Source: a virus
Direction: 5' to 3' (one strand)
IMG/VR virus record: IMGVR_UViG_3300033143_000663
Coordinates: 1-64,000 of that record
Length of the DNA: 64,000 nt
Part shown: positions 3,443 through 58,702 of the stretch, piece after piece
Layout of the letters: every line of letters begins with the position of its first letter
How positions within the stretch are numbered: position 1 is the first letter of the stretch
Translations under genes and position numbers: made by a program
Notes under the pieces: model-generated
Database searches by the model: none
Seen by the model: only the letters and a program-made list of their open reading frames with translations
What the model was told of the DNA's origin: nothing

Positions 3443-3973
3443 TTATAAATTACCTTCCAGTTGTTTCTTTTTGTTGTGTGCGTCGCGTCTTGCTTGGCTC
3501 CACGGTTTACCTTTTAAAGTAGCTGAGGCTTTAGCGTACCTACTATCTGGCTTTCTGCCTATATTAGCTTGTCTAATATTTTCTGCATGTTCAGCTGTTT
3601 TTGGTTTGCTGTAGTTCTTTTTATGTTCTTCTGTACGCACTTTACCTGTATTACCTTCTGATATCTTTTGTTTTGCTTGTTCGCTGTGATGCCAGTCTGA
3701 ATTACTTGTTTTTCCGCCTGCACGTAAATTCTCTAATATTCCTGTTCCGTTGCACTTCATTCCGTGTCGTTTAATTAATTTAGTTTCTAAGTTCCAAGCC
3801 TGTTGCTTAGTTAAATCATCAACAACCTGCACATTATCATATCCGGGAAAGGTTACATAAAGATGTTTAGCTTGGATTCGATCTTCCTTACCCATACCAA
3901 TATAGAATGGGTTATTCTCATTTAAGTATGTGTAGACGTAGTATCGTTTATATTCCTGCCAAGCCATTTATAA
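3433..3973. repeat. 16-base near-identical start-codon repeats flanking the homing gene
   Basis: Positions 3433-3448 and 3958-3973 match at 15 of 16 bases; read on the minus strand they are TTATAAATGGC(A/T)TGGC. Each copy contains a start codon: portal (MAWRKY) and endonuclease (MAWQEY). The pair brackets the endonuclease gene as a target duplication would. Confidence 0.6.
3443..3967 (-). CDS. GIY-YIG homing endonuclease with NUMOD3 repeats (Seg-like)
   Basis: Free-standing homing endonuclease of 174 residues. The GIY-YIG domain is at the N-terminus (YYVYTY about residues 9-14, FYIGMG about residues 20-25). After about residue 90 it has NUMOD3-type DNA-binding motifs (HSEQAKQKISEGNTG, EEHKKNYSK, AEHAENIRQANIGRKP), as in T4 SegA-E. 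It sits between the tape-measure gene and the portal gene, abuts the portal start codon, and has a perfect TATAAATA late promoter 19 bases before its own start. Its first codons resemble those of the portal gene, which suggests insertion at the portal start. Confidence 0.9.
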   Translation of the reverse strand: MAWQEYKRYYVYTYLNENNPFYIGMGKEDRIQAKHLYVTFPGYDNVQVVDDLTKQQAWNLETKLIKRHGMKCNGTGILENLRAGGKTSNSDWHHSEQAKQKISEGNTGKVRTEEHKKNYSKPKTAEHAENIRQANIGRKPDSRYAKASATLKGKPWSQARRDAHNKKKQLEGNL

Positions 3974-6186: not shown

Positions 6187-7029
6187 ATGTCTGATAATCC
6201 TTTATTACAATATTTCAGAAGTCCAGCAATTCATTTAGAATTACCAAGCAAAGGCGAGTACTATGCTAAGGGTAGTCTTATAATGCCTGAGACTAACGAA
6301 CTCCCAGTACTACCAATGACTGCATTAGATGAGATTACATACAAAACACCAGATGCATTGTTTAATGGATCAGCTATTGTTGATGTTGTTAAGAGTTGTA
6401 TACCAGCTATTGTTGATCCTTGGCAAATGCCAATAACAGATATAACAGCGATATTGTGTGCAATCCGTATTGCAAGCTTCGGACATCAAATGGATATTGA
6501 CACAGTATGTCCAAAGTGTAATAATACTGCTACGTATAGTTTAGATCTAAGAAATATTATTGAAGCAATACAACCACCAGATTATTCCGATCCTATGAAA
6601 ATTGGCGATCTATCATTTTTCTTCAAACCAATGATTTATAAAGATTTAAACGAAAATAATAAATTACAATTTGAAGAAGAGAAGATGTCGCAGATACTTA
6701 CTAATTCTGAAATTGATAAGGCACAACAAATTGCAATGTTGTCTGAAGCTTATAAGAAGGTATCTAAATATACTATTGCAACACTAGCTAAGAATATTAA
6801 AACAATTATCACGCCAGACGCATCTGTTGTAAATGAAGAACACATTTTAGAATTCTTACAGAATTGTGAAAATGATGTGTATAAAAAGATAAAGAAAGAA
6901 ATAATTACTCAAAAAATGTCAGAGGCAATAAAGCCATTACATATTAAATGTGAGGAAGAAGAATGTGGTCACGAATATGATCAACCATTTACTCTTGACA
7001 TGACATCTTTTTTCGCGCAAGGCTCTTAA
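6187..7029 (+). CDS. 26: Baseplate hub protein / tail assembly chaperone gp26
   Basis: T4 gp26-family protein of 280 residues (T4 gp26 is about 208), needed for baseplate hub assembly. The N-terminus (LPSKGEYYAKGSL about residues 19-31, then LPVLPMTALDEI) is the typical family start. Two cysteine pairs, CPKC (108-111) and CEEEEC near residue 260, could form a zinc ribbon. The last codons contain T-TTT-TTC (7008-7014), a canonical -1 slippery heptamer in frame with gp26. A shift there would fuse residues 1-276 to the gp51-like frame. A late promoter is at 6149. Confidence 0.9.
   Translation: MSDNPLLQYFRSPAIHLELPSKGEYYAKGSLIMPETNELPVLPMTALDEITYKTPDALFNGSAIVDVVKSCIPAIVDPWQMPITDITAILCAIRIASFGHQMDIDTVCPKCNNTATYSLDLRNIIEAIQPPDYSDPMKIGDLSFFFKPMIYKDLNENNKLQFEEEKMSQILTNSEIDKAQQIAMLSEAYKKVSKYTIATLAKNIKTIITPDASVVNEEHILEFLQNCENDVYKKIKKEIITQKMSEAIKPLHIKCEEEECGHEYDQPFTLDMTSFFAQGS
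7008..7014 (+). promoter_or_regulatory. Candidate -1 ribosomal frameshift site
   Basis: The heptamer T TTT TTC is in the gp26 reading frame: codons TCT, TTT (7009-7011), TTC (7012-7014). It has the X XXY YYZ form. A -1 slip leads into the downstream gp51-like frame at codon CGC 7014-7016. Confidence 0.6.
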
Positions 7030-7244
7030 TCCTAACCCCTGAAGAAATTTCCAACTTTGTAGATCAACTCGAAAAAGAATCGGATGCAATACGCAGCGAG
7101 TCTCTTAAACTAGCATGGTCTATGCGTGGTGGTGTACAGTACACTGATGTTATGAATATGAGTTTTAACGAACGTGTTATGATTTCAGAAATATCTAAAG
7201 AAAACCTTGACATTACAAAGAAATCCGGCTTACCCTTCTTCTAA
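7014..7244 (+). CDS. 51: gp51-like hub assembly segment, probably made by frameshift from gp26
   Basis: A 76-codon frame in the -1 frame of gp26, ending TAA 7242-7244, that reads LTPEEISNFVDQLEKES and continues to SGLPFF. In T4, gene 51 (hub assembly catalyst) directly follows gene 26, and the position and helical character fit. The frame has no ATG, GTG or TTG before the internal Met of WSMRGG, and an in-frame TGA at 6996-6998 closes it upstream. A -1 shift at 7008-7014 would give a 352-residue gp26-51 fusion. Initiation at a rare codon such as ATC 7029 is the alternative. The protein is far shorter than T4 gp51, so the name is tentative. Confidence 0.6.
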   Translation, partial: RARLLILTPEEISNFVDQLEKESDAIRSESLKLAWSMRGGVQYTDVMNMSFNERVMISEISKENLDITKKSGLPFF

Positions 7245-7662
7245 ACCTAGAAGTTTTAATCAGAATGATGACAATATCCTATTGGAGATCTGCTAACACA
7301 GATCTATTCGTCTGTTTCGCTGTCGCTATACAGACTCATGTATGCTTACGCTTAATTAGATTTATTTGTTTAAGAAAGAATAAATTTATTGTAAGAGCAA
7401 AGAGATATATTTGACTAGAACTAAGAGCCATACTCCACCCGCTAAGGGCGGGCCAAAATAAAAAATTAAATTTTTACTTTTGGAGATTTGTAACTTGACT
7501 GTCACGTTTCACCAATGTTATGTAACGTTAAAACCCTTGTTCTATATTTCATTCCATGACTACATAGATCGCAGTAGCTATACCTATAACACCCACACGA
7601 TAGACAATTATTACTATTAGTAACACGAAGGCGGTCGCCCGCTACCTCCTATGCCCGTCTCT

Positions 7663-7708
7663 CACAACGGAACTCTCCACCCACCTCGTTGTGGTCACCA
7701 GCAGGTGG
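7663..7708 (-). other. H-type pseudoknot candidate
   Basis: Stem 1 pairs 7663-7669 with 7687-7693 (7 bp, CACAACG/CGTTGTG). Stem 2 pairs 7681-7686 with 7703-7708 (6 bp, CCACCT/AGGTGG). The stems cross with no base between 7686 and 7687, so they can stack coaxially. The loops are 11 and 9 bases. Confidence 0.55.
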
Positions 7709-7750
7709 AAAGCCGACAGTTGCATTCTTTTTCAAGCAGAGCTGTCATCT

Positions 7751-7960
7751 TTTAGCCTAAACACTATTTCCCATAATTGATTTCTTTTCACAGTCAAACG
7801 CATTATATGGTAGGCATATCGCATCGTCATCCGTTGGCACGGGTAGTGACTGTTAACTCCGCTATTGCCCGGAGTATTTAGACTACCTTCTCACATCAGG
7901 AAGGGTTCGTCGGCGCAATAAACCGCCCGCGCTAGGGCTTTCAATAGTGTTTAGGCTAAA
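7751..7960. repeat. 18-bp perfect inverted repeat enclosing a folded domain
   Basis: Arms 7751-7768 and 7943-7960 are exact reverse complements and enclose 174 bases. Inside are further pairings: 7790-7796 with 7847-7853, 7842-7847 with 7882-7887 (crossing the former), and a hairpin at 7856-7875. Confidence 0.85.
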
Positions 7961-8159
7961 TCAATAAACTTCCAAAGGGTTCTGTATTATCCCACACCGC
8001 TCTTGGGTGCATTTGACTGGGTGTCTGTTTGTTGTCCTAGAAGTAACACTCCTTCGCGGAGTTTACCACATTTTAAATGTACACTTTTGGGCATCGTACA
8101 TTATTAATGTACGGTCGTTAATAGTGTACAATCAAAGTAAAGTCGGGCTTTACTTGCGA

Positions 8160-8167
8160 TATTTATA
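8160..8167 (-). promoter_or_regulatory. Late promoter TATAAATA pointing into the untranslated region
   Basis: On the minus strand this is the exact T4 late consensus. There is no minus-strand gene within about 900 bases downstream. The expected start, about 6 bases on, lies at the edge of an 8-bp hairpin (8135-8155). Confidence 0.65.
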
Positions 8168-8196
8168 CGCGCCGCTGACGCCTAATAAATAACACT

Positions 8197-8727
8197 ATGC
8201 CTTATATAGAGCTTAAAACAAAGGATATTAAGGTCCTTAAAGAAAAACTCCACAAACAGAATAAAAAGATCTGTCCTTTACTTGGCGTACCTGTACCCTT
8301 AGATAAAACAGCTTTAGATCATATACATAAACTAAAGTCTGAACCTTATGCAGAAGATAAAGGTACTATTCGTAATGCTATCGAATTCCGTGCTAACGCA
8401 ATGGAAGGTAAGATAACAAATAACTGGAAGCGATACTTCGGTGCTGATGTATCTAAGCACCCAACCGATCTCCCATCATTCTTACGCAACCTAGCTGACT
8501 ACTTAGAAGCTGGCGCGTACTCTGAGGATGGCGATTACTATATCCACCCTAGTGAGGTACCCAAGGTACCAAAAATTAAAAAATCATCTTATAACAAAAT
8601 GATTAAGCTCTTCAAAGTAAAGTATCCTAAGAAGAAAGTTCCTGCTTATCCAAAATCTAGAAAACTAACAAAACTTATGGATAAACTGTTTACTGAATTT
8701 AGCATAACTGATATCTATTACAGTTAA
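8197..8727 (+). CDS. 49: Recombination endonuclease VII (gp49-like)
   Basis: Holliday-junction resolvase that debranches replicated phage DNA before packaging. The 176-residue length is close to T4 gp49 (157). The HNH-type core is visible: LDHIHK (about residues 47-52), then GTIRNAIEFRANAMEGKITNNWKRYFG (about 66-93), with the Asp-His and Asn expected of the active site. T4 endonuclease VII binds zinc through four cysteines; here I see only one (ICPLLG), so the zinc site seems to be missing. The C-terminus is Lys-rich. Its stop codon abuts the stop of the convergent radical SAM gene, with no spacer. Confidence 0.85.
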   Translation: MPYIELKTKDIKVLKEKLHKQNKKICPLLGVPVPLDKTALDHIHKLKSEPYAEDKGTIRNAIEFRANAMEGKITNNWKRYFGADVSKHPTDLPSFLRNLADYLEAGAYSEDGDYYIHPSEVPKVPKIKKSSYNKMIKLFKVKYPKKKVPAYPKSRKLTKLMDKLFTEFSITDIYYS

Positions 8728-9729
8728 TCACCATTCTAACGTGTGATCATCATCTGCTAATTTTTCTCTAGTACACTTAGCTGTACATTCCTGCGATGTA
8801 AATAACCGATCACTATACCAATCATCAAGTTTACTAACAGGCTCGTTATATAAGTTAAGAGCATTGCTCGTCCACGATTCGTTGTGTTCAAATCTATTTG
8901 CAACCCAACAACACGGATACAGTTCTCCACGACTATTTAAAAATAATCCTTTGTTACCTATTGTACATATTCCTGCGTTATTAGAAAATATTAATTGGTC
9001 TTTCCTTAACCGAAAAGTCTCTTTTATACTTTGGCCACAACGAACTTTATTTGTTAAAAATGAAAGCTCACGTTCGTAACGCTCTGATGATGATACTAAA
9101 TCTTTACGTGGTTCTAGTGGATCGTTAGCTGGATAGCTTGAATACTTACTACCAAATTTTGTACTTTTAGTTAATTGAAATAAATCGAAATCCATCTCTG
9201 TTGCTAACTCTTTCATCTGATCAAGATTATCTTGATTAAACTTAAAAGCAATGGCAGCCCAGACGGTGTATGTTGTATCATTTGCATCAATGAAAGCCTC
9301 AACACCATCTATAATAGTTTTCCAATTTGAATTAATACGATACATGTTATTAGATGCATCATTAAAACCATCAATGCTCCAGTTAACTTCATCGTGTTCA
9401 TCTAATGCGTATGCTAATTCTCTCCACCAGCACTTAGGTTTATTGCTTCCGTTTGTTATAATAACAATCATAATCTCCGGATTGCATTGTTTAAACCATT
9501 TAATAATATTAATTAGATCCGTGCAATATATAGGGTCGCCATCATTGCCACACAATGTAATTTTTTTAATGTTCTTTACAACGTCAGCGCCAACATATTC
9601 TTTAAAGAAATCTAGTGTTAGTTGTTTATTTAAAAGTGATTCTGGAACTTCAGCCCGCGGGCATCGCGGGCACTTTAACGGACAACGACTACTTAATTCT
9701 ATATGCCAGTGGTCTCTAGCTAAGTTCAT
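8728..9729 (-). CDS. Radical SAM protein at the end of the gp55-gp47-gp46 operon
   Basis: A 333-residue radical SAM enzyme. The cluster-binding motif CPLKCPRC (Cys16, Cys20, Cys23) is near the N-terminus and several more cysteines lie in the C-terminal half (CTIGNKG, YPCCWVA, SQECTAKCTRE), suggesting a SPASM- or twitch-type second cluster domain. The start overlaps the gp46 stop by ATGA, so translation is probably coupled to the recombination genes. The substrate is unknown. It differs from the six radical SAM genes at 47.6-55.6 kb, in which the cluster motif lies near residues 99-147. Confidence 0.85.
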   Translation of the reverse strand: MNLARDHWHIELSSRCPLKCPRCPRAEVPESLLNKQLTLDFFKEYVGADVVKNIKKITLCGNDGDPIYCTDLINIIKWFKQCNPEIMIVIITNGSNKPKCWWRELAYALDEHDEVNWSIDGFNDASNNMYRINSNWKTIIDGVEAFIDANDTTYTVWAAIAFKFNQDNLDQMKELATEMDFDLFQLTKSTKFGSKYSSYPANDPLEPRKDLVSSSERYERELSFLTNKVRCGQSIKETFRLRKDQLIFSNNAGICTIGNKGLFLNSRGELYPCCWVANRFEHNESWTSNALNLYNEPVSKLDDWYSDRLFTSQECTAKCTREKLADDDHTLEW

Positions 9730-46722: not shown

Positions 46723-47638
46723 TTCAATAGACATAGCAGACTTAGACGTAGTTTATCTAAGTTACGATGAACCACAGAAAGAAGAGTTCTGGGTTAGGAT
46801 TAAAAATATGGTTCCGTGGGCCGTTAGAGTAGACGGTGTTAAGGGTAGCGATGCAGCGCATAAAGCCGCCGCAGACGCAAGTGAAACAGATAGATTTATT
46901 TTGATTGATGGTGACAACTTGCCCGACTTGGACTTCTTTAACTTAACACTTGATTTTAAAGATGCAGATTATGAAAAGGCTGTATTCCGTTGGAGAGCAC
47001 GTAACCACATCAATGGGTTGATGTACGGCAATGGTGGTATTAGTTGTTGGACTAAAGACTTTATATATAATATGAAAACACACGAAGCAAGTGTAGGTAG
47101 TGATGACACCGATGTGGAGTTTTGTTTTGATCCATTGTATTGGGCGATGCATGATTGTTATAGTACGACATATCCAAATGGTAGCAAGTTCCATGCATGG
47201 CGCGCAGGGTTTAGAGAAGGCGTTAAGATGTGCTTGAACCAGGGTAAGAAACCTACAATCGGAGAGTTTAAAGATAGCGTACATAAACGTAACATGGCCC
47301 ATTTAAGTATTTGGCATAACATAGGTAGTGATGAGGAATACGGCTCATGGGCAATTCTTGGTGCGCGTATGGGTACACATATGACAATGTTAACAGACTG
47401 GAATTATAAAGAAGTACAGTGGTTCGACAACCTGGCAGAAATTTACAAGCAGGTGCATGATGTACCAGCACAAATTCAAGCATTAGGTGTAGAGCTCGAA
47501 ACACAATTAGATTTACCTATGCTGTCACCTAGTGCTGAGCATAGCAAGTTCTTTAAAGATCACTATCGTTCTAATTGGCACAATAAAGGTGTAATGGTAC
47601 GTGAAATTGATGTAATACGTAACCTAGAAGGTTGGTAA
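46715..47638 (+). CDS. Glycosyltransferase-like protein 3
   Basis: A 307-residue protein. Residues about 5-75 (DLDVVYLSYDEPQKEEFWVR, VPWAVRVDGVKGSDAAHKAAA, TDRFILIDGDNLPDLDFF) look like a nucleotide-sugar domain with DGD at the metal site. The middle has a conserved-looking KAVFRWRARNHINGLMYGNGG. The second half of the large protein at 59381 has a similar sequence of motifs. It may act on the product of the radical SAM enzymes that follow; TAATG couples it to the first of them. Confidence 0.6.
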   Translation: MIDSIDIADLDVVYLSYDEPQKEEFWVRIKNMVPWAVRVDGVKGSDAAHKAAADASETDRFILIDGDNLPDLDFFNLTLDFKDADYEKAVFRWRARNHINGLMYGNGGISCWTKDFIYNMKTHEASVGSDDTDVEFCFDPLYWAMHDCYSTTYPNGSKFHAWRAGFREGVKMCLNQGKKPTIGEFKDSVHKRNMAHLSIWHNIGSDEEYGSWAILGARMGTHMTMLTDWNYKEVQWFDNLAEIYKQVHDVPAQIQALGVELETQLDLPMLSPSAEHSKFFKDHYRSNWHNKGVMVREIDVIRNLEGW

Positions 47639-49011
47639 TGAGTAAGAGTAAGTTTTTGTCTGACGCAGAAAAGATGAAGGAGAAACTAGACTCTGTTAGT
47701 CCTTCGATGTGTCTTGCAAAATGGAAACAGGTGTCCTTGCATTTGACTACAGGGTTGAATAACTCGTGCTACCATCCACCATTACATACAATAGATGTCG
47801 CCGCAATTAAAAAAGACCCAAGTGCATTACATAACACAGAGTTAAAGAACAACATACGTAAGCAAATGATAGAAGGTATTCGTCCAGCAGAGTGTAGCTA
47901 TTGTTGGGCAATGGAAGATAATGGAAAGCTGAGTGATCGTCACTACAGAAGTGGCGAACCGTGGGCAGCAAAAGACTTTGACGCTATAGTTGCAAACCCA
48001 TATGCCGATGTTAACCCTTCATATGTGGAGGTTAACTTTAACCATGCATGTAACTTGGCGTGTTCTTATTGCTCCCCTCAGTTTTCCACTACTTGGATGA
48101 AGGAAGTTAAGAAGCACGGTGCGTACCCTACAGCACAACCACACAACGATCCTGCGTACTTTACTAGCATCAGACGCCCAATACCTAACCGCGAAGATAA
48201 TCCATACGTTGATGCATTTTGGGAGTGGTGGCCAGAACTATATAAAGAACTTGTACATTTTAGAATGACAGGTGGCGAACCACTTATGGATAAGAATACA
48301 TACAAGGTATTTGATTATGTATTAGCAAACCCAAAGCCCGATTTGCATTTAAATGTAACAAGTAATTTGTCTGTAGACCAAAAACTATGGGACAAGTACA
48401 TGGGCTATGTTAAGCAATTAACAACAGGTAAGATCGAACACTTTATGCAGTACGTAAGTGTTGACACTTGGGGCGAACAAGCTGAGTACATACGCCACGG
48501 ATTAGACTTCAATTTGCTTCTTGAACGTGTAGAGGAATTTCTAACAGAGATACCTAGTTACAGTAGCATCACGTTTATTATTACAATGAACAATCTATCC
48601 ATACATAACCTCAGACAGTTAATGATGAACATATTACACTTGAGAAGAAAGTATAGTAAGGACTTCCAGCGTGTCTGGTTTGATACTCCTGTGCTACGTA
48701 CACCAGAATGGCAGAGTATGCAAATACTTCCAGAGCACTTTGTTAGTAGGTTAGAAGATGCGAAACAATACATGCTAGACAACATGGAAACAGAAGACAA
48801 TCGTTTCCACGGGTTTAAAGACTATGAAGTACAGCGCATGGACAGAGACATTGCGTGGATGAAACAAGGAACAGACAACCTAGAACAAAAGAAGGCAGAC
48901 TTCTATCGCTTCTTTAACGAAGCGGACAGACGTCACAATACAAACTTTTTATTAACGTTCCCTGAGCTAACTGCATTTTGGAACGAGTGCAAATATTATG
49001 CAAACAAATAA
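47638..49011 (+). CDS. Radical SAM protein 1 of the tandem array
   Basis: A 457-residue radical SAM enzyme. An N-terminal cysteine segment (SMCLAKWKQVSLHL, then SCYHPP) precedes the cluster motif CNLACSYC (Cys138, 142, 145), and MTGGEPLMDKNTY gives the SAM-binding GGEP motif. CSYCW around residue 83 adds further cysteines. I chose the ATG at 47638 (TAATG overlap) instead of the TTG at 47632. It is close in layout to array member 3 (50464). Substrate unknown. Confidence 0.88.
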   Translation: MSKSKFLSDAEKMKEKLDSVSPSMCLAKWKQVSLHLTTGLNNSCYHPPLHTIDVAAIKKDPSALHNTELKNNIRKQMIEGIRPAECSYCWAMEDNGKLSDRHYRSGEPWAAKDFDAIVANPYADVNPSYVEVNFNHACNLACSYCSPQFSTTWMKEVKKHGAYPTAQPHNDPAYFTSIRRPIPNREDNPYVDAFWEWWPELYKELVHFRMTGGEPLMDKNTYKVFDYVLANPKPDLHLNVTSNLSVDQKLWDKYMGYVKQLTTGKIEHFMQYVSVDTWGEQAEYIRHGLDFNLLLERVEEFLTEIPSYSSITFIITMNNLSIHNLRQLMMNILHLRRKYSKDFQRVWFDTPVLRTPEWQSMQILPEHFVSRLEDAKQYMLDNMETEDNRFHGFKDYEVQRMDRDIAWMKQGTDNLEQKKADFYRFFNEADRRHNTNFLLTFPELTAFWNECKYYANK

Positions 49012-49297
49012 ACTCAAGGTATTTAAAATTTTAAAAGGGGAAAAGATTGTCATTCGGCGTCGATTTCCGAATTTTGTTTGCGACGGCCGACCGTTAGGGC
49101 CAGAACCTGAATTGTATCTACATTCAATAATAATTGAAGAAGACTTTTATACGTTAGATTGGGTAAAGGAAATTATGTCTGACCCGAATTTTAAAAGTTG
49201 GTTTGTTGAGGCGGAAAAAATATGTGCCCGGTATGGAACTGACACAGCTTGGCATGCGGTGGTTGAAGAAGGAGAAATATCTTTTGCTAACAGATAA
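48998..49297 (+). CDS. Small protein between radical SAM genes
   Basis: A 99-residue protein overlapping radical SAM gene 1 by 14 bases and gene 2 by 14 bases. It begins with a basic strand-rich part (LKVFKILKGEKIVIRRRFPNFV) and ends with a helix (KSWFVEAEKICARYGTDTAWHAVV). A second small protein of similar size and position follows radical SAM gene 3, so such small proteins may be partners or substrates. Not recognised. Confidence 0.65.
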   Translation: MQTNKLKVFKILKGEKIVIRRRFPNFVCDGRPLGPEPELYLHSIIIEEDFYTLDWVKEIMSDPNFKSWFVEAEKICARYGTDTAWHAVVEEGEISFANR

Positions 49298-50462
49298 GAA
49301 CAAAGATACATTCTGCCCAGGACACTGGGACGATATTCATTTTGCTCCGTCACAAGGATATATGTACGGTTGTTGCAAAGCGGTACCAATCCCAATAGAA
49401 GATACACGCGAAACTGATCAACGTATACACGACTCTCTAAATGGTATTAGAAACCCAGCCTGCGAGTACTGCTGGAAAACAGAAGATGCAGGCAACGAAA
49501 GCTATCGACATTACAAAATTAAGTTATGGAATAAAACAAAAAGTTGCCGCATGTTAAATTTAGTACTTGGTAATCTGTGTAATCTCCAATGTACGTATTG
49601 CAACGAAAAATATAGTTCAAAGTGGCAAACGGATAAAAAACGCAACGGTGAAATCAAACTGCATTTTGATAGAAATGTATATTACGGCGGCGAATCAATC
49701 GACAACAAGGAGTCACAGGAATATATTGACTTCTTTAATAGCATTACACCCGCACCAAAAGTATTCTCAGTGTCGGGCGGAGAGCCATTAATGGGAAATA
49801 TTTTTAATGATATTTTAACACAATGCGATCTAACTGATGTAGAGACCATACGTGTTTCTACAAACTTAAACTACCCAAACCGAGTTGTAGTTAAAAAGCT
49901 ATTAGAATTTGAGAATACACATAAGGTAATTTTCAATGTAAGTTTAGATACAATAGACTCCGAAATGCAGGAATATATACGTTTTGGATTTTCATGGAAG
50001 AAGTTCAAAAATAATTTAGATTTTCTCTTAAATGAAACATCAGTGTGTATAAATTTTAATTCACTTTTTACAGCACAAACAGTATTTGGTATTTACAACA
50101 TGTACGAATTCGTGTATAATTTAAAGATGGCATATCCTGACAGGATTAATTGGTTTATATCAACATGTACAACACCATCAATACATACCTTTGACACGTT
50201 AGTTGATTCGGATAAAGCGAAGGCATTAGCATTCGCGCAAGCGGCGCAATCGAAAATATCCGGTCAACAAGTCGCAGACCAAATGTCAATTGTGAACAAA
50301 ACATATATGGAATTGATACAAATTAATAAATTGGTTGCGGCATTAGAGCAAGCGACATTCAATGAAGAATTACTAAAGGATCAGCAAAGTTTCTTTAGAC
50401 AGTTCAATGAGAGACAGGAAATTCAATTACCTAAAAAACTAAAGTTTTTAATTGGAGAGTAA
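49284..50462 (+). CDS. Radical SAM protein 2 of the tandem array, probable TTG start
   Basis: A 392-residue radical SAM enzyme if started at the TTG 49284, which has AAGGAG 9 bases upstream. A TTG at 49203 would overlap the previous gene by 95 bases with family-unlike sequence. The N-terminus has FCPGHWDD and GCCKAVP, then CEYCWKTED; the cluster motif is CNLQCTYC (Cys99, 103, 106); SVSGGEPLMGN is the GGEP motif. Two later cysteines only, so the C-terminal domain may lack a second cluster. Substrate unknown. Confidence 0.85.
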   Translation: MLTDKNKDTFCPGHWDDIHFAPSQGYMYGCCKAVPIPIEDTRETDQRIHDSLNGIRNPACEYCWKTEDAGNESYRHYKIKLWNKTKSCRMLNLVLGNLCNLQCTYCNEKYSSKWQTDKKRNGEIKLHFDRNVYYGGESIDNKESQEYIDFFNSITPAPKVFSVSGGEPLMGNIFNDILTQCDLTDVETIRVSTNLNYPNRVVVKKLLEFENTHKVIFNVSLDTIDSEMQEYIRFGFSWKKFKNNLDFLLNETSVCINFNSLFTAQTVFGIYNMYEFVYNLKMAYPDRINWFISTCTTPSIHTFDTLVDSDKAKALAFAQAAQSKISGQQVADQMSIVNKTYMELIQINKLVAALEQATFNEELLKDQQSFFRQFNERQEIQLPKKLKFLIGE

Positions 50463-50463
50463 A

Positions 50464-51831
50464 ATGAGTTTAAGAAAACCGGGCAGAGAAAAAGATGAAG
50501 AAGTGCTAGACTTTATTAACTCGTTTAGTCCTTCGATGTGTTTGGCTAAATGGTACAATGCTACTATATGGCTTGGCAGTGGTCAAACAACGAGCTGCCA
50601 TCATCCGCCAGCACACCAAATCGATCTCAAAGAACTTGAAAGCAACCCAAGAGCCTTACACAATACACGCGAGAAGAAAACAGATCGTATGCAAATGCAA
50701 GATGGCCGTCGTCCACCGGGTTGTGAGTACTGCTGGAAGATTGAAGATATGGAACGTGGTGCTATTAGCGACCGTGTTTATAAGTCTGTAATATATGACG
50801 ATAAAGATGTTAACCTTGTTTCAATGCTTGATCCACGCTCGGATGTTAATCTTAAAACTCTTGAGATTGCCTTTGACCGTACATGTAACTTTGCTTGTTC
50901 GTATTGTAACCCAGCGTTTAGCACCGAATGGGTCAAGGACATAAAGAAGTTTGGCCCGTATCGCTTATTACAAAGTGATGGTCGCAATCACTTCACGCAC
51001 ACACATGATTCAGCAGAGCCGTATGGCCCAAAAGAAGAAAACCCGTATGTAGAAGCGTTCTTTAAATGGTGGGACTCGGATTTAAAATATACGTTACAAG
51101 AGTTACGACTGACTGGCGGCGAACCTTTAATGTCTGGGCACACCTGGCGCTTGTTTGATAAGTTTATAGAAGATAAACCCGACATGCAGTTTGCCTTAAA
51201 TAGTAATCTGTGTGCTAAGGATAAACTAATTGATAAGTTGGTTGAAACAACACATTCAATTTCAAACTTCCAGTTATACACAAGCAATGAAGCCATAGGC
51301 GATCAAGCAGAGTACATACGCGACGGGCTTGATTGGTTACAATGGAAACTAAATGTACACAAGATTCTTAAGGAAGGAAGTGTTCAAGGTTTTCATATGA
51401 TGTGTACTATTAATGCATTGTGTTTAGAGTCGTTACCACAGTTCTTAGATATGATGTTGGAAATGAAAACAGCGTACGGTGGCCAGAACTTTCCAACGTT
51501 TTCATTAAACATCTTAAGGTTCCCATCGTTCCAGAGTCCACTAGTATTACCGGACGACTTACGAACAGAATTTAAAGATGAATTGCAGTGGTGGTTAGAT
51601 ACCAATGGCACTAATCCATTGTTGCATGAAATGGAAATTAATCAAGTACAGCGGTTAATTGATTACCTTGATGTTGTTAAAACACCACACGATGGTACGT
51701 TTGACTTGCCTGCATTGCGTAACGATTTTTACATGTTTTATCAACAGTATGACTCGCGCCGTAGCAAGTGTCTTAGCTTGACCTTTCCTAGGATAGGAGA
51801 ATGGTATGATGGTCTCGGACAGAAGATCTAG
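50464..51831 (+). CDS. Radical SAM protein 3 of the tandem array
   Basis: A 455-residue radical SAM enzyme very similar in layout to member 1: FSPSMCLAKWYNATIWL, SCHHPPAHQID, CEYCWKIED, cluster motif CNFACSYC (Cys141, 145, 148), LRLTGGEPLMSG. A GGAGAG ribosome site precedes the ATG at 50464. Members 1 and 3 share SPSMCLAKW and an ALHNT segment, so they arose by duplication with member 2 between them. Confidence 0.88.
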   Translation: MSLRKPGREKDEEVLDFINSFSPSMCLAKWYNATIWLGSGQTTSCHHPPAHQIDLKELESNPRALHNTREKKTDRMQMQDGRRPPGCEYCWKIEDMERGAISDRVYKSVIYDDKDVNLVSMLDPRSDVNLKTLEIAFDRTCNFACSYCNPAFSTEWVKDIKKFGPYRLLQSDGRNHFTHTHDSAEPYGPKEENPYVEAFFKWWDSDLKYTLQELRLTGGEPLMSGHTWRLFDKFIEDKPDMQFALNSNLCAKDKLIDKLVETTHSISNFQLYTSNEAIGDQAEYIRDGLDWLQWKLNVHKILKEGSVQGFHMMCTINALCLESLPQFLDMMLEMKTAYGGQNFPTFSLNILRFPSFQSPLVLPDDLRTEFKDELQWWLDTNGTNPLLHEMEINQVQRLIDYLDVVKTPHDGTFDLPALRNDFYMFYQQYDSRRSKCLSLTFPRIGEWYDGLGQKI

Positions 51832-52078
51832 GGGTTCTAAAGTGGAGAAATTGCCAGACGGCCCGATCAACTGGAACCGACGGTTTATACGAACACTCAA
51901 AGTGAACGGAAAGCAAACATATATAATTTCGGACTATAAGTTCTGGTCAAACAATCAAGTTGAACTTGAAAATTGGCTTATAGCTAATACTGAGGATGGT
52001 CTAGATACGCAAGAAGGAATGACACTAAATTTTTGCAGCGAGCAAGAAGAATTAATGTTTAAGTTAAGATGGGAATAA
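51806..52078 (+). CDS. Small protein between radical SAM genes
   Basis: A 90-residue protein overlapping radical SAM gene 3 by 26 bases and ending one base before gene 4. It has a basic start (DRRSRGSKVEKL) and a NWNRRFIRTLKVNGKQTYIISDYKFW strand-rich centre. It occupies the same relative place as the 99-residue protein at 48998. Not recognised; it could be a chaperone or peptide substrate for the neighbouring enzymes. Confidence 0.65.
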   Translation: MMVSDRRSRGSKVEKLPDGPINWNRRFIRTLKVNGKQTYIISDYKFWSNNQVELENWLIANTEDGLDTQEGMTLNFCSEQEELMFKLRWE

Positions 52079-52079
52079 C

Positions 52080-53363
52080 ATGAGTTACGATTATAATAGC
52101 TGGCATCCAGTAGGGATTAATCCAGAAGAATTAGACGAGTACGAAACGGAGTTACTACGTGATAGTAAAACGTTTTGTATCTATCCGTGGATCCATTTAC
52201 ATGCATATCCAACAGGCGAAACGTATCCTTGTTGTCATGCAGACATGCAGCAACCTGTAGGTAGTACACGTAAAGATGCAATGAAAGATATTTGGAACAG
52301 CAATGGCATGAAACAGATACGTAAGAACATGCTCGAGGGTAAAGCATGTAGCGAGTGTGTAGGATGTTATGAACAAGAAGAAGCAGGTTTCTTTAGTGGA
52401 CGTAAGAGTGCTAATAAGCATCACGGACATCAAATTAATCTAGTAGAAGAAACACAAGCAGACGGCCACCTAGACAAATTTCAAATGTCTTACTGGGACG
52501 TGAGGTTCAGTAATTTATGTAACCTTAGTTGTCGCAGTTGTGGTCATATTTTCAGCAGTAGTTGGTATAAAGACCAAGTAGCGTTAGCCGGCGCCCAGTG
52601 GGGAGCAGACAATAGTGCTTTGCAGATTGCAGGCCGCAACAAAACAGATATGTTTGAACAGCTCATGGAACATATTGACTACGTTGAACAAATATACTTT
52701 GCAGGCGGTGAACCCTTAACCATGGAAGAACATTATCTGATTCTCGATGAACTGGAACGCAGAAAATTGTTCCATGTTCGCTTGATATACAACACTAACT
52801 TCACACAGATTAAACTTAAAGACAGAGAAGTCTTTGATTACTGGAAAAAGTTTGATAGTGTTAGTGTTGGAGCGAGTTTAGATGCAATGGGGCGCCGCGC
52901 AGAGTATATACGTAAGGGTACGAAATGGGACGTTGTGGAAGAAAACAGACGCAAGATGCTAGAAGTCTGTCCTGATGTGGACTTTTATATAAGTCCAACG
53001 TTAAGCATAATGAATGCTTTGCACATTACGGATTTCCACAAGGATTGGGTAGAGAAGGGTTTCTTAAAACCACAGGACCTAAACATCAATATTTTGCAAG
53101 ACCCGCTAGAGTTTAGAATTGATATTGCTCCACCTAGGTACAAAGAACGTATACGAGAGCTATTTGAAAAGCATATTAAATGGCTCAAAGGTAAGGATGA
53201 TTTAAATCGTGCTACTACAGGATTCGAAAGTGCCTTAACGTTTTTAGATGCAACAGACAACACACATTTAATACCTGCGTTCTGGGATAAGATAAACACT
53301 ATGGATAGAATTCGCAATGAAACATGGCATGACTATATCATTGAGGTTCACGATATTAAATGA
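52080..53363 (+). CDS. Radical SAM protein 4 of the tandem array
   Basis: A 427-residue radical SAM enzyme. N-terminal FCIYPWIHLHAYPTGETYPCC (about 31-51) and CSECVGCYEQEEAG precede the cluster motif CNLSCRSC (Cys147, 151, 154), then YFAGGEPLTMEEHY. The FCxxPWxH...PCC start is also seen in members 5 and 6, so these three form a subgroup distinct from members 1 and 3. The stop overlaps the next start by ATGA. Substrate unknown. Confidence 0.88.
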   Translation: MSYDYNSWHPVGINPEELDEYETELLRDSKTFCIYPWIHLHAYPTGETYPCCHADMQQPVGSTRKDAMKDIWNSNGMKQIRKNMLEGKACSECVGCYEQEEAGFFSGRKSANKHHGHQINLVEETQADGHLDKFQMSYWDVRFSNLCNLSCRSCGHIFSSSWYKDQVALAGAQWGADNSALQIAGRNKTDMFEQLMEHIDYVEQIYFAGGEPLTMEEHYLILDELERRKLFHVRLIYNTNFTQIKLKDREVFDYWKKFDSVSVGASLDAMGRRAEYIRKGTKWDVVEENRRKMLEVCPDVDFYISPTLSIMNALHITDFHKDWVEKGFLKPQDLNINILQDPLEFRIDIAPPRYKERIRELFEKHIKWLKGKDDLNRATTGFESALTFLDATDNTHLIPAFWDKINTMDRIRNETWHDYIIEVHDIK

Positions 53364-54556
53364 ACCTACCTAACAAAACGTTCTGCGTATTACCGTGGAT
53401 CAGTTTAGAAGCAAGCCCAATTGGTACTGTGCGCCCTTGTTGTTTAGCAGATGATGAAATAGTCAACGACGAAGGCGAGAAGTACGACCTTAATAAAGAC
53501 AGCCTCCTTGCAATACAAGATTGTACACACATGGAAAAATTGCGTGAGCAATTCCTTAGAGGCGACCGTCCAGCAACGTGCCGTAGGTGTTGGGCCGAAG
53601 AAGATGTCGGGCGTACTAGTAAGCGGATGAATACAATAGCCCGTCTTGAACACGTCTTAAAAGATACAGCCGACTGGAATAAGTCCGCTAAGAACTTACA
53701 GTTTATAGACTTTAAGCTAGGCAATATTTGTAATCTAAAATGTCGTATATGTGGTAGTTGGAGTTCAAGTACATTTGCCGGCGAAGAAATAAAGTTTGCA
53801 CAAGACGATGACAGTTTCCATAGGGATATGAACCGCAAAGGAATGTGGCCGCGCAAGGCCAAGTCATTCTGGGATGAGCTCGAATTCGCAGCATCAGATT
53901 TACGCTATTTAGAGTTTACCGGCGGTGAGCCGTTTATGATAAAAGAGCACTTTGAGTTTCTAGATAGATTAATCCAAAAGGGTCTAGCTAAACAAATCGA
54001 AATACATTATAACACAAATGGTACACACTGGCCCGAAAAGTACGTGCATCTTTGGAAAGAATTCAAGCATGTAGAATTTGCATTTAGTATCGATAACATT
54101 GGTAAGCGGTTCGAGTACGAACGTACCAATGCAAATTGGGATGAAGTAAACGAAAATATTTGGAAGTTTATTAAGTGGCGTTCGGGTCAATTGAATACAT
54201 CTCTCCAGCTATGTACTACTATTAATATCTATAATGTGTTATACTTAGAGGATATCTACAATTGGGAGTACTTCGATAAGTTCGATTTTGTATTTTGGAA
54301 TATGTTACACGATGCACCGGAAAATTGTATTAAGTCGTTGCCGGAACATGCAAAAGCCGCAGTAAGAGAAAAGTTATTACTAGCTCATGTAGATGATAAA
54401 ACATTAGAAGAATTTAAAAATGTTGTTAGTTTTATGGACTCAGGTAAGGGTGTTGACCCGTTGCCTAATATTACTAAGCTAGACAACCGCCGCGGAGTGT
54501 CTTTAAAAGATACTCATCCAGAACTATATAAATTATTATATGAAGAAGCCAGATAA
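53360..54556 (+). CDS. Radical SAM protein 5 of the tandem array
   Basis: A 398-residue radical SAM enzyme with FCVLPWISLEASPIGTVRPCC (about 7-27), CRRCWAEEDVGRTS, cluster motif CNLKCRIC (Cys124, 128, 131) and LEFTGGEPFMIKEHFEFL. The end (RGVSLKDTHPELYKLLYEEAR) resembles the end pattern of array members 1 and 3. It overlaps the next gene by 17 bases. Substrate unknown. Confidence 0.88.
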   Translation: MNLPNKTFCVLPWISLEASPIGTVRPCCLADDEIVNDEGEKYDLNKDSLLAIQDCTHMEKLREQFLRGDRPATCRRCWAEEDVGRTSKRMNTIARLEHVLKDTADWNKSAKNLQFIDFKLGNICNLKCRICGSWSSSTFAGEEIKFAQDDDSFHRDMNRKGMWPRKAKSFWDELEFAASDLRYLEFTGGEPFMIKEHFEFLDRLIQKGLAKQIEIHYNTNGTHWPEKYVHLWKEFKHVEFAFSIDNIGKRFEYERTNANWDEVNENIWKFIKWRSGQLNTSLQLCTTINIYNVLYLEDIYNWEYFDKFDFVFWNMLHDAPENCIKSLPEHAKAAVREKLLLAHVDDKTLEEFKNVVSFMDSGKGVDPLPNITKLDNRRGVSLKDTHPELYKLLYEEAR

Positions 54557-55595
54557 CAAACCAGATACATTGTGCCTTGCACCGTGGATTCATACATATC
54601 TAAGTCCACAGACTGAACGTAGAATGTGTTGCGCTTCACGCGAACCAGCACAAAACTTTAAACAGTACATAGATACACACACAGGTGACGGCCTGTATAA
54701 TCCCTTAACACTAGAAGAACACTGGAACAGTGAACACATGAAGTCTGTGCGTAAGCGTATGATGGCAGGCGAAGAATTAAGTGAATGCGATGTATGCAAT
54801 AACAAGTTACTAAACACAGACGTTTACCGTAGTTACTTTTGGAATATGTTCAAACAACATTACGATAACATTTGGGATCACACAGATGATGATGGCCATA
54901 CATACATGAACCCAGTAAGCTGGGACTATCGGTTCAGTAATTTGTGTAACTTCAAGTGCCGTATGTGCGGCGGTATGCTATCGTCTAGCTGGGAAAGCGA
55001 AGAACGCAAGCACGACATGATTGATTGGACTAACCCAGCTAATAACTGGATGCAAAAAGATGTCCGCGGGCAAATAAGTAAATTTCAAGATACACAAGTT
55101 GAAAAAGAATTTAGTGATGCGGTCGAAGAGAACCGCATTGAAGAAGTGTATTGGGTAGGTGGTGAACCACTAATGTTTGAACAGCATTGGAAGTACATGA
55201 AGCGAATCATCGATCTTGGCAATGGTCATATGGTGTATGCACGTTACAATACAAACTTATCACAAATAGAATACAAAGGTACACATCTTTACAAAGATAT
55301 CTTGCCGCATATACGCGATTGGCAGATATGTGCAAGTATTGACGGTACTGGCGAAGTTGGAGAATATATAAGGACAGGCCTAAAGTGGCACACGTTCTTA
55401 GATAACTTTAAACAAGGATTAGCAATAGCCAATAACCCCCGCCAGATGCGTCTTGATTTTACCCTGACATTACCAGGGCTTTTTGAGCTGAAAAACATGT
55501 TTAACCTTAGTAAGTCGTTAAATACTACGTTACTTGCTAAAGTTACATTTGCATTCGGTCCAAACATTTTAATGTCGCCTTTAGCATTAGAATAG
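54540..55595 (+). CDS. Radical SAM protein 6 of the tandem array, probably frameshifted
   Basis: A 351-residue radical SAM enzyme with LCLAPWIHTYLSPQTERRMCC (about 11-31), CDVCNNKLLN, cluster motif CNFKCRMC (Cys136, 140, 143) and VYWVGGEPLMFEQHW. It stops after SPLALE while the -1 frame continues open to 55849 with sequence that reads as the missing C-terminus. Either an indel, an assembly error or recoding occurred near 55580-55595. The catalytic part is intact. Confidence 0.82.
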   Translation: MKKPDNKPDTLCLAPWIHTYLSPQTERRMCCASREPAQNFKQYIDTHTGDGLYNPLTLEEHWNSEHMKSVRKRMMAGEELSECDVCNNKLLNTDVYRSYFWNMFKQHYDNIWDHTDDDGHTYMNPVSWDYRFSNLCNFKCRMCGGMLSSSWESEERKHDMIDWTNPANNWMQKDVRGQISKFQDTQVEKEFSDAVEENRIEEVYWVGGEPLMFEQHWKYMKRIIDLGNGHMVYARYNTNLSQIEYKGTHLYKDILPHIRDWQICASIDGTGEVGEYIRTGLKWHTFLDNFKQGLAIANNPRQMRLDFTLTLPGLFELKNMFNLSKSLNTTLLAKVTFAFGPNILMSPLALE

Positions 55596-57016: not shown

Positions 57017-57198
57017 GTGAGTTTATCAATAACGATCCCTGTAAGCGAGTCTGTGTTACCGATAAGGAAACTGGGCTTTGCTATGGGTGTAAGCGGTCAG
57101 TGGACGAGATAAGAAACTGGAATTTATATTCAGACGAAATGCGTAAAAGCATTCTAATGGACATTGAGGACAGAGATCCTTCTAATGAGACAAAATAA
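57013..57198 (+). CDS. DUF1289-type small cysteine protein
   Basis: A 61-residue protein with PCKRVCVTDKETGLCYGCKR (about 9-28) followed by SVDEIRNWNLYSDEMRKSIL, the arrangement of DUF1289 proteins, predicted to bind iron-sulfur. Four cysteines are present. In this context it could help maintain the clusters of the radical SAM enzymes, but that is inference. It overlaps the carbamoyltransferase start by 14 bases. Confidence 0.8.
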   Translation: MSEFINNDPCKRVCVTDKETGLCYGCKRSVDEIRNWNLYSDEMRKSILMDIEDRDPSNETK

Positions 57199-58702
57199 TA
57201 TACTAGGTATTAGTGCTGGCTTCCATGACGCGGCAGCTACCGTAATCGATGGCGACAATGGTAAGATATTGTTTGCCAGTCATAGCGAGCGTTACAGTAA
57301 GAAAAAGCACGACAAAGAATTAAGTCCGTTATTAGTAGACGAAGCGTTACTACATGGTACAATTAGTACAGTGGCGTATTATGAGAATCACTGGTTAAAG
57401 AAAGCCAGACAGATCTTCGCAGGACAGAAGATTGATAACTGGCGTTGGTCATTGCGCGAAGAACTTAATCGTCATCTTCCTAATCGTCATTTATTCCTTG
57501 ACAGCGTTGAGCTAAAAGGCTACGGCCATCACAAATCACACGCCGCTGCCGGATTCCAAACTAGTCCTTATGACGAAGCGACCGTAGTTGTTATTGATGC
57601 CATTGGTGAGTTTGATACTATTACTATTTGGAACGCCAGGTACGATAATAAAGGCAGAGCACAATATAAACTACGTTACCGCCAGATGTATCCAAACAGC
57701 ATCGGCTTATTCTACAGTGCAATTACAAACAACGTAGGTTTACGTCCACTAGACGAAGAATATGTTTTAATGGGCATGGCCGCATACGGCGACGCATCAA
57801 AAACAGTAACTAAAATTAAGCATAAACTAGTGCGATCTATCGACCCTATTAGATTTAAAGAGAACTTGCATATTGGGTTTCATGATAGTTTTTGTAAGCG
57901 TGGCATTAACAAGTTTGACGTTGCCGCAGGAGCACAATCAATACTAGAAGAAATGATCGACAGTGTAATGCAAAAATCTAAGAAGTATGATCGTTCTAAT
58001 AATTTAGTATTCATGGGCGGCGTAGCATTAAATTGTTCTGCTAATAGAAACCTTGGCAAGTACTACGAAAACATTTGGATCATGCCCAACCCCGGTGATG
58101 CTGGTAGTAGCTTAGGTGCTGCGGCATTAGCGTATGGTAAGAAATTACAATGGAATAATGCATTCCTTGGGTACAATATTGCAGGACCTTATCCTGTTGA
58201 TAAAGTTATTGCAACTTTACTAGAAGAAAAGATTGCTGGTGTTGCTAATGGAAAGGCTGAGTTCGGACCACGCGCATTAGGCAATCGTTCTTTGCTTGCT
58301 GATCCACGTGGTGCTGACATTAAAGATAAAATAAACGAAATTAAACGTAGACAAAAGTTTCGTCCGTTTGCTCCAATGATACTTGCAGAATATGTTGATG
58401 AGTATTTTATCATACCAGACGGCTTTAACGAAAGTGATTACATGCAAGTTACAGCAAAGTGTAGTAAACCTAAAGAGTTCCCTGCGATAATACATGAAGA
58501 TGGTACAAGTAGAGTCCAGACAGTACAAGACGATGGTACTGGTATACGGAAACTTCTTGAAGCATGGTACAACGAAACCGGTTGTCCTATACTACTTAAC
58601 ACATCATTAAACATACGCGGTGAACCCGTTGTAAATGATGTAGCAGATGCAAAGCGATTTGAAGAAGAGTACGGTGTAAAAGTATTTACATCCGTATTAT
58701 AA
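57185..58702 (+). CDS. Carbamoyltransferase (NodU/CmcH/TobZ family)
   Basis: Transfers a carbamoyl group from carbamoyl phosphate, through a carbamoyl-adenylate, to a hydroxyl of a small molecule, sugar or modified base. The 505 residues start ILGISAGFHDAAATVI; GHHKSHAAAGF (about 117-127) carries the metal-binding histidines of the Kae1-like domain; FMGGVALNCSANRNLG and GDAGSSLGAAALAYG follow; the C-terminal domain has AEFGPRALGNRSLLADPR and RPFAPMIL. It is somewhat shorter than typical members. ATG 57185 is preferred over 57164. The acceptor is unknown. Confidence 0.92.
   Translation: MRQNNILGISAGFHDAAATVIDGDNGKILFASHSERYSKKKHDKELSPLLVDEALLHGTISTVAYYENHWLKKARQIFAGQKIDNWRWSLREELNRHLPNRHLFLDSVELKGYGHHKSHAAAGFQTSPYDEATVVVIDAIGEFDTITIWNARYDNKGRAQYKLRYRQMYPNSIGLFYSAITNNVGLRPLDEEYVLMGMAAYGDASKTVTKIKHKLVRSIDPIRFKENLHIGFHDSFCKRGINKFDVAAGAQSILEEMIDSVMQKSKKYDRSNNLVFMGGVALNCSANRNLGKYYENIWIMPNPGDAGSSLGAAALAYGKKLQWNNAFLGYNIAGPYPVDKVIATLLEEKIAGVANGKAEFGPRALGNRSLLADPRGADIKDKINEIKRRQKFRPFAPMILAEYVDEYFIIPDGFNESDYMQVTAKCSKPKEFPAIIHEDGTSRVQTVQDDGTGIRKLLEAWYNETGCPILLNTSLNIRGEPVVNDVADAKRFEEEYGVKVFTSVL

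Follow-up and report, generated by a model that had tools for sequence, protein, structure and literature searches.

IMG/VR record IMGVR_UViG_3300033143_000663 comes from a T4-like freshwater phage and is 67.9 kb long; positions 1 to 64,000 were analyzed and are hereafter called the window. A gap at positions 7245-8196 separates a gp51-like frame from gene 49, both carried on the plus strand (Table 1). No ORF longer than 61 aa was found in the gap on either strand, and the small ORFs present there are not conserved, with indels throughout the region among relatives. No trace of a degraded protein gene was seen in the gap either, in agreement with an earlier sequence-only reading, which had recognized no supportable gene. 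The same reading put every other spacer of the window below 170 bases. This holds when short genes are allowed (if ORFs of at least 60 aa count as genes, the second-longest spacer measures 162 bases), but not when only ORFs of at least 100 aa are counted (354 bases). The window contains no detectable tRNA or tmRNA. Elsewhere in the window (47632-55595), six predicted radical-SAM/SPASM-like proteins are encoded in tandem, with one more beside gene 49 (8728-9729); together with a putative carbamoyltransferase-like gene (57164-58702), they would form a metabolic cluster unusual for a phage.

When the gap was folded, the minus strand gave -283.1 kcal/mol (z -6.4 or -5.7 in two runs) and the plus strand -252.7 kcal/mol (z -3.7 or -5.2 in two runs), with dinucleotide-preserving shuffles as the baseline for the z-scores. 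Eleven other 952-base stretches of the window yielded z-scores from +1.2 to -3.2 over both strands. Together with z-scores of about -5 to -6, the twelve inverted repeats detected in the gap substantiate the dense secondary structure that had been noted from the letters. One of these repeats, a perfect one of 18 bp, encloses the most conserved part of the gap and is kept in two relatives (L002 and L003).

Table 1. The gap, its flanking genes and the parts of the proposed minus-strand RNA (window coordinates)
Feature	Position	Strand	Remarks
gp51-like frame (putative)	7027..7244	+	Adjoins RNA 3' end; after gp26 as in Phosso and L023; non-ATG start likely
Proposed large RNA, about 870 nt	7285..8154	-	Ends predicted; late-promoter match at 5' side, conserved terminal hairpins at 3' side; z -5.7 to -6.4
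Terminal hairpin AGAUCUG...CAGAUCU	7286..7305	-	Like position and sequence type in type B RNAs and L004
3' signature hairpin GUCUGUAUAGCGACAGCGAAACAGAC	7310..7335	-	GARCG-n-AGYGAA hairpin
3' domain	7584..7683	-	Model R1; core hairpin GGAGGUAGCGGGCGACCGCCUUC at 7649-7627
Middle hairpin GACAGCUCUG...CAACUGUC	7715..7746	-	Counterpart of GGGCUCUGUGAAAMAGAUACAACCC in other members
18-bp helix, 3' arm	7751..7768	-	Inverted repeat
Polynucleobacter-1-like 5' domain	7796..7937	-	RF01718 full length (1-141)
18-bp perfect helix, 5' arm	7943..7960	-	Closes 5' domain; inverted repeat I2
TATAAATA, T4-type late promoter match	8160..8167	-	At RNA 5' end
Gene 49 (endonuclease VII)	8197..8727	+	Head to head with RNA; homologues found

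At gathering thresholds, no Rfam family was matched in the window. In a permissive search, the Polynucleobacter-1 model (RF01718) aligned end to end to the minus strand of the gap with 22.3 bits (E 0.021, 0.004 or 2.7e-4, depending on search size). This score lies below the gathering score of 37 bits; the match is full-length, collinear and the best one in the record. The segment shares with Polynucleobacter-1 the motifs CUAGCGC.GGC, UCCG.GCA.UAGCGGAG and ACUA.CC..GGA.GA, which, being collinear and equally spaced, suggested a diverged RF01718 member rather than noise. A pattern derived from these motifs retrieved two IMG/VR phage contigs, L023 and L025. In L023, gp26, gp51, a gap and gp46/47 follow one another in the same order as in the window (L025 ends before gp26), and the L023/L025 gap holds a clear RF01718 member on the minus strand (92.1 bits, E 1.8e-18). 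The equivalent gap of L064 scored 120.1 bits. In whole-record searches, the best RF01718 match fell in this gap, on the minus strand, in the window and in L001-L004 (five records). Further pattern matches, in genome contigs L026-L030, were attributed to chance, and a plus-strand match to RT-14 (22.8 bits) was discarded as below threshold and unsupported in relatives. Searches of the cultured jumbo phages PA5oct, Atu_ph07, RaK2, Phosso and XaC1 with RF01718 gave nothing convincing, and no DNA-level relatives were found in cultured phages.

Relatives of gp26 led to 80 more phage loci, many with an ORF-poor gap downstream, and iterated nhmmer profiles revealed a conserved element in the gap, without exception on the minus strand, in 58 sequences, one of them the window. 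Downstream of gp26, the RNA is present in about 57 non-redundant IMG/VR relatives, always on the gp46/47 strand. Two forms can be distinguished: type A, with a Polynucleobacter-1-like 5' domain, and type B, without a detectable RF01718 match (for many members, none at E <= 0.5). Both have the middle and 3' motifs GGCUCUGUGAAAMAGAUACAACC, GUUCCGUUG and a GAGG..CCUC hairpin. The iterated search risked drifting from type A to type B, which was checked by these shared motifs and by an independent model, R1 (see below). A scan for a 19-base motif of the 3' domain alone hit at least 120 IMG/VR stretches. Among the 80 loci scored, some of them already among the relatives, SegE lies upstream on the RNA strand in 68 of 68 scorable cases and gp46 does so in 49 of 49; gp26 is found downstream, on the other strand, in 55 of 56. 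The 5' neighbor of the RNA is the plus-strand gene 49 in some phages, as in the window, and the minus-strand SegE GIY-YIG gene in others (L023, 2343-2768), an apparent neighbor exchange. In L003 (3819-4088) and L007 (3723-4019), the RNA region and gp51 are separated by a small minus-strand ORF of 89-98 aa, which is absent from the window.

R1 is a covariance model of the 3' domain built from 37 phage sequences, with the window left out. In the 67.9-kb record it gave a single match (30.5 bits, E 2.3e-5, E-values of R1 being rough because of a short calibration). Since RF01718 and R1 each matched only inside the gap of the 67.9-kb record, two domains are present there, in the right order and on one strand. 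The window RNA belongs to the extended family by its 3' domain, by its GARCG-n-AGYGAA-type hairpin with a second 3' hairpin, and by its phage locus (downstream of gp26/51, on the gp46/47 strand). The signature hairpin, followed by the second one, is found at the 3' ends of phage RNAs, and the window has both. The RNAs of type B, of bacteria, of L004 and of XaC1 also finish in this signature hairpin, with an inner pair that varies between G-C and A-U. Xanthomonas phage XaC1 is probably a family member and the best candidate for a cultured carrier: its equivalent gap (L042:4969-5760, minus strand) has the signature hairpin and a weak R1 match, which is outscored elsewhere in XaC1. The long gaps at the locus in PA5oct and Phosso contain no signature hairpin. 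The middle-hairpin motif is common to the window, L003 and type B RNAs, and its helix covaries in type B (helix 5). Positions 7583-7340 of the window RNA gave no alignment to other clades, and in some relatives the RNA is shorter, at about 400 nt.

Covariation was drawn from relatives, the close clade of the window being too small, and the structure of the window RNA rests on homology with them. Across 27 type B RNAs, 82 pairs were 97.9% paired, compared with 36-44% in slid controls. Double-sided changes were seen in 26 of the 82 pairs (13.5 in shuffles) and in 112 cells (28 in shuffles), and none of 500 shuffles reached either value. The 3' domain, in 37 sequences, presented a similar covariation picture. 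Covariation in homologues, on which the sequence-only reading had staked its proposal of an RNA, is hence strong. G-U states are frequent (e.g., AU:16/GU:11), which fits the minus strand, and not its complement, as the RNA. In type B RNAs (L047, L058, and L073; alignment A5), CUCRGAUNAWG and UCURGAUNAW vary in concert, in the manner of direct repeats (states GAUG/GAUA, AAUG/AAUA, and CAAG/CAAG), a covariation beyond ordinary base pairing.

The T4-type late promoter match at the RNA 5' end is one of four exact TATAAATA copies in the 64 kb (+6149, +46533, -3993, and -8167). The +6149 copy is located just before gp26, and the -3993 copy just upstream of a gene for a GIY-YIG-like free-standing endonuclease (3443-3967) beside the portal gene. 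Judging by T4 late-promoter spacing, transcription of the RNA would start at about 8154. TATAAATA is found just upstream of the RNA in 4 of 57 relatives (L001, L002, L003, and L046). Most other relatives have no T4-type late promoter; in these, SegE and gp46 precede the RNA on its own strand, and the RNA must be expressed in another way. In the window phage, the promoter at about 8167 would drive the RNA and the 3' hairpins would end or protect it, and the two together would allow the RNA to accumulate late in infection. That it is both late and abundant seems reasonably probable.

RF01718 scored above the cut-off in 3 of 399 genomes of one bacterial order and in 6 of 398 genomes of one family. 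In the nine bacterial loci read in detail, an RNA of about 520-600 nt lies in an integrase island, and the best-conserved of the bacterial RNAs have both the 3' domain and the 3' hairpin in common with phages. All nine loci have a gene for a DUF6641 protein (PF20346) in divergent orientation to the RNA, and in seven a short tyrosine recombinase gene lies downstream of the RNA. Among these loci is one that scores only 25.8 bits, so matches to RF01718 below threshold can be real. DUF6641 copies that have no RF01718 match nevertheless have RNA-like matches next to them, which indicates that the RNA family is wider than RF01718; such matches were seen in L152 (G060; E 6e-12) and L155 (G049; E 5e-4). 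Loci L129 and L145-L149 carry a conserved cassette of DUF6641, the RNA, the short integrase, a P-loop ATPase-like protein and a recombinase of about 424 aa, apparently an undescribed integrative element. DUF6641 was absent from the phage records searched, and it was therefore rejected as a partner of the phage RNA. A search of viral contigs for the exact bacterial 3' motif gave no match, no DNA relatives of the bacterial form were found in plasmids, and no mention of DUF6641 was found in the open-access literature. The window RNA is several times as long as the Rfam model (141 nt), which lacks the second conserved domain and the 3' hairpins of the phage RNA. From these sequence comparisons we conclude that Polynucleobacter-1 is only the 5' domain of a wider RNA family.

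GOLLD and ROOL, which are thought to act as a scaffold, cage or RNP core, had been named as parallels in the sequence-only reading. Neither covariance model (RF02032 and RF03087, respectively) matched in cmscan or in any of 12 records at E <= 10, with control genomes silent too for ROOL, and membership in either family was rejected. The parallel survives in kind, all three being large, phage-borne and probably late RNAs. The likeness to GOLLD extends to size, origin from lakes and a conserved 3' region with a more variable 5' region, along with likely late expression (PMC12286853), but the window has no tRNA and the locus is different. ROOL is likewise a large phage or prophage RNA, whereas the window contains no tRNA island. 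Phage ICP1 produces, as its most abundant transcript, an RNA of about 800 nt from an ORF-less gap of about 1 kb (PMC7567579), a gap like that of the window in being about 1 kb, ORF-less and in a myovirus. The ICP1 gap (L156:14000-15200) neither resembled the family profiles nor contained the 3' signature hairpin, and so the ICP1 noncoding RNA was rejected as a relative. The view that the window RNA belongs to an unidentified family thus stands as far as Rfam gathering scores, GOLLD and ROOL are concerned, and has to be amended for the 5' domain, which is related to Polynucleobacter-1.

The fold, the strand, the conserved locus, the two conserved domains and the conserved pair of 3' hairpins were all computed for the RNA, which lies on the minus strand, antisense to its neighbors gp26/51 and gp49. 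The presence in the gap of a structured minus-strand RNA of this family is highly likely, and the z-scores, the covariation, the two models and the lack of any gene remnant uphold the original suggestion of a large structured phage RNA; the late expression suggested with it fits the conserved late-promoter match. Overall, the data are best explained by a noncoding RNA of about 870 nt that is free-standing and has several domains, and we regard this explanation as likely. The RNA itself would be the product, a point of which we are less sure, and its fold would be a stable, compact particle acting in trans, as a scaffold, cage or RNP core, rather than regulating a neighbor in cis. That phages and bacteria have both domains (5' and 3') and the 3' hairpin in common, although the genes around them differ, points to a trans-acting RNA. 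A particle of the GOLLD/ROOL kind serves as our working model, even though it is somewhat less likely than not.

Regulation in cis was considered as an alternative: the element could be a long 3' UTR, an attenuator or an antisense RNA that tunes either gp26/gp51 or the operon of gp47, gp46 and SegE. The RNA shares its strand with gp46/SegE, downstream of which it lies, and is oriented toward gp26/51 on the other strand, and Polynucleobacter-1 was listed as probably cis-regulatory in its 2010 discovery paper (Weinberg 2010; PMC2864571), the only mention of RF01718 found in the open-access literature. We nevertheless think such a role unlikely. In bacteria, the RNA has unrelated neighbors, DUF6641 being divergent from it and the short integrase lying downstream; in the clade of the window, gene 49 intervenes between the RNA and gp46, and the RNA has its own late-promoter match. 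Moreover, a terminator or leader would require neither an RNA of this size nor several long unpaired stretches that are conserved.

The bacterial neighborhoods raise the prospect of a counter-defence or hijacked mobile-element RNA, the phage version mimicking or titrating the island RNA used with DUF6641 and the integrase. The constant association with DUF6641, and the frequent one with the short integrase, speak for it, as do the island neighbors: the three islands examined for defence genes contained Zorya ZorABCD (L130), PDC-M33 with a type II methylase (L129), and restriction-like genes, named from sequence only (L150). With just three islands behind them, these genes may be mere island cargo, and the phages are without DUF6641, which makes this reading improbable.

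An element acting at the DNA level, such as a hairpin-rich replication origin or a recombination or packaging site, would suit the fixed position between late baseplate genes and the recombination genes 46/47/49, and transcripts take part in T4 origins. It is very unlikely given the strand-specific RNA signals (G-U-tolerant covariation and conserved unpaired motifs) and the same RNA in bacterial integrative islands with other replication systems. An accidental fold in a stretch devoid of genes, or the remains of a gene, finds some support in the sub-threshold RF01718 score of the window and can be practically dismissed, as sequence and fold are conserved at one locus in dozens of phages and z of about -6, covariation and two independent models all oppose it.

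If the gap is read as encoding a free-standing large RNA, what Rfam lists as an orphan motif of 141 nt grows into a large RNA family with several domains. The locus of this family is constant across a big group of T4-like phages, uncultivated and in part jumbo. DUF6641 is the constant protein neighbor that ties this family to bacterial integrase islands, and the bacteria bearing such islands may include hosts of the phages. One speculative and rather unlikely scenario is that a large RNA is common to lytic T4-like phages and integrase-borne islands, with the bacterial RNA-DUF6641 unit, adjacent to defence systems, serving the mobility or immunity of the element and the phage copy being a captured RNA that counters or exploits it. 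GOLLD, ROOL and the ICP1 RNA are abundant large phage RNAs without known function; the present family has a defined locus, a match to a late promoter, a counterpart in bacteria and a protein that may be its partner, and with it the question of what large phage RNAs do becomes testable.
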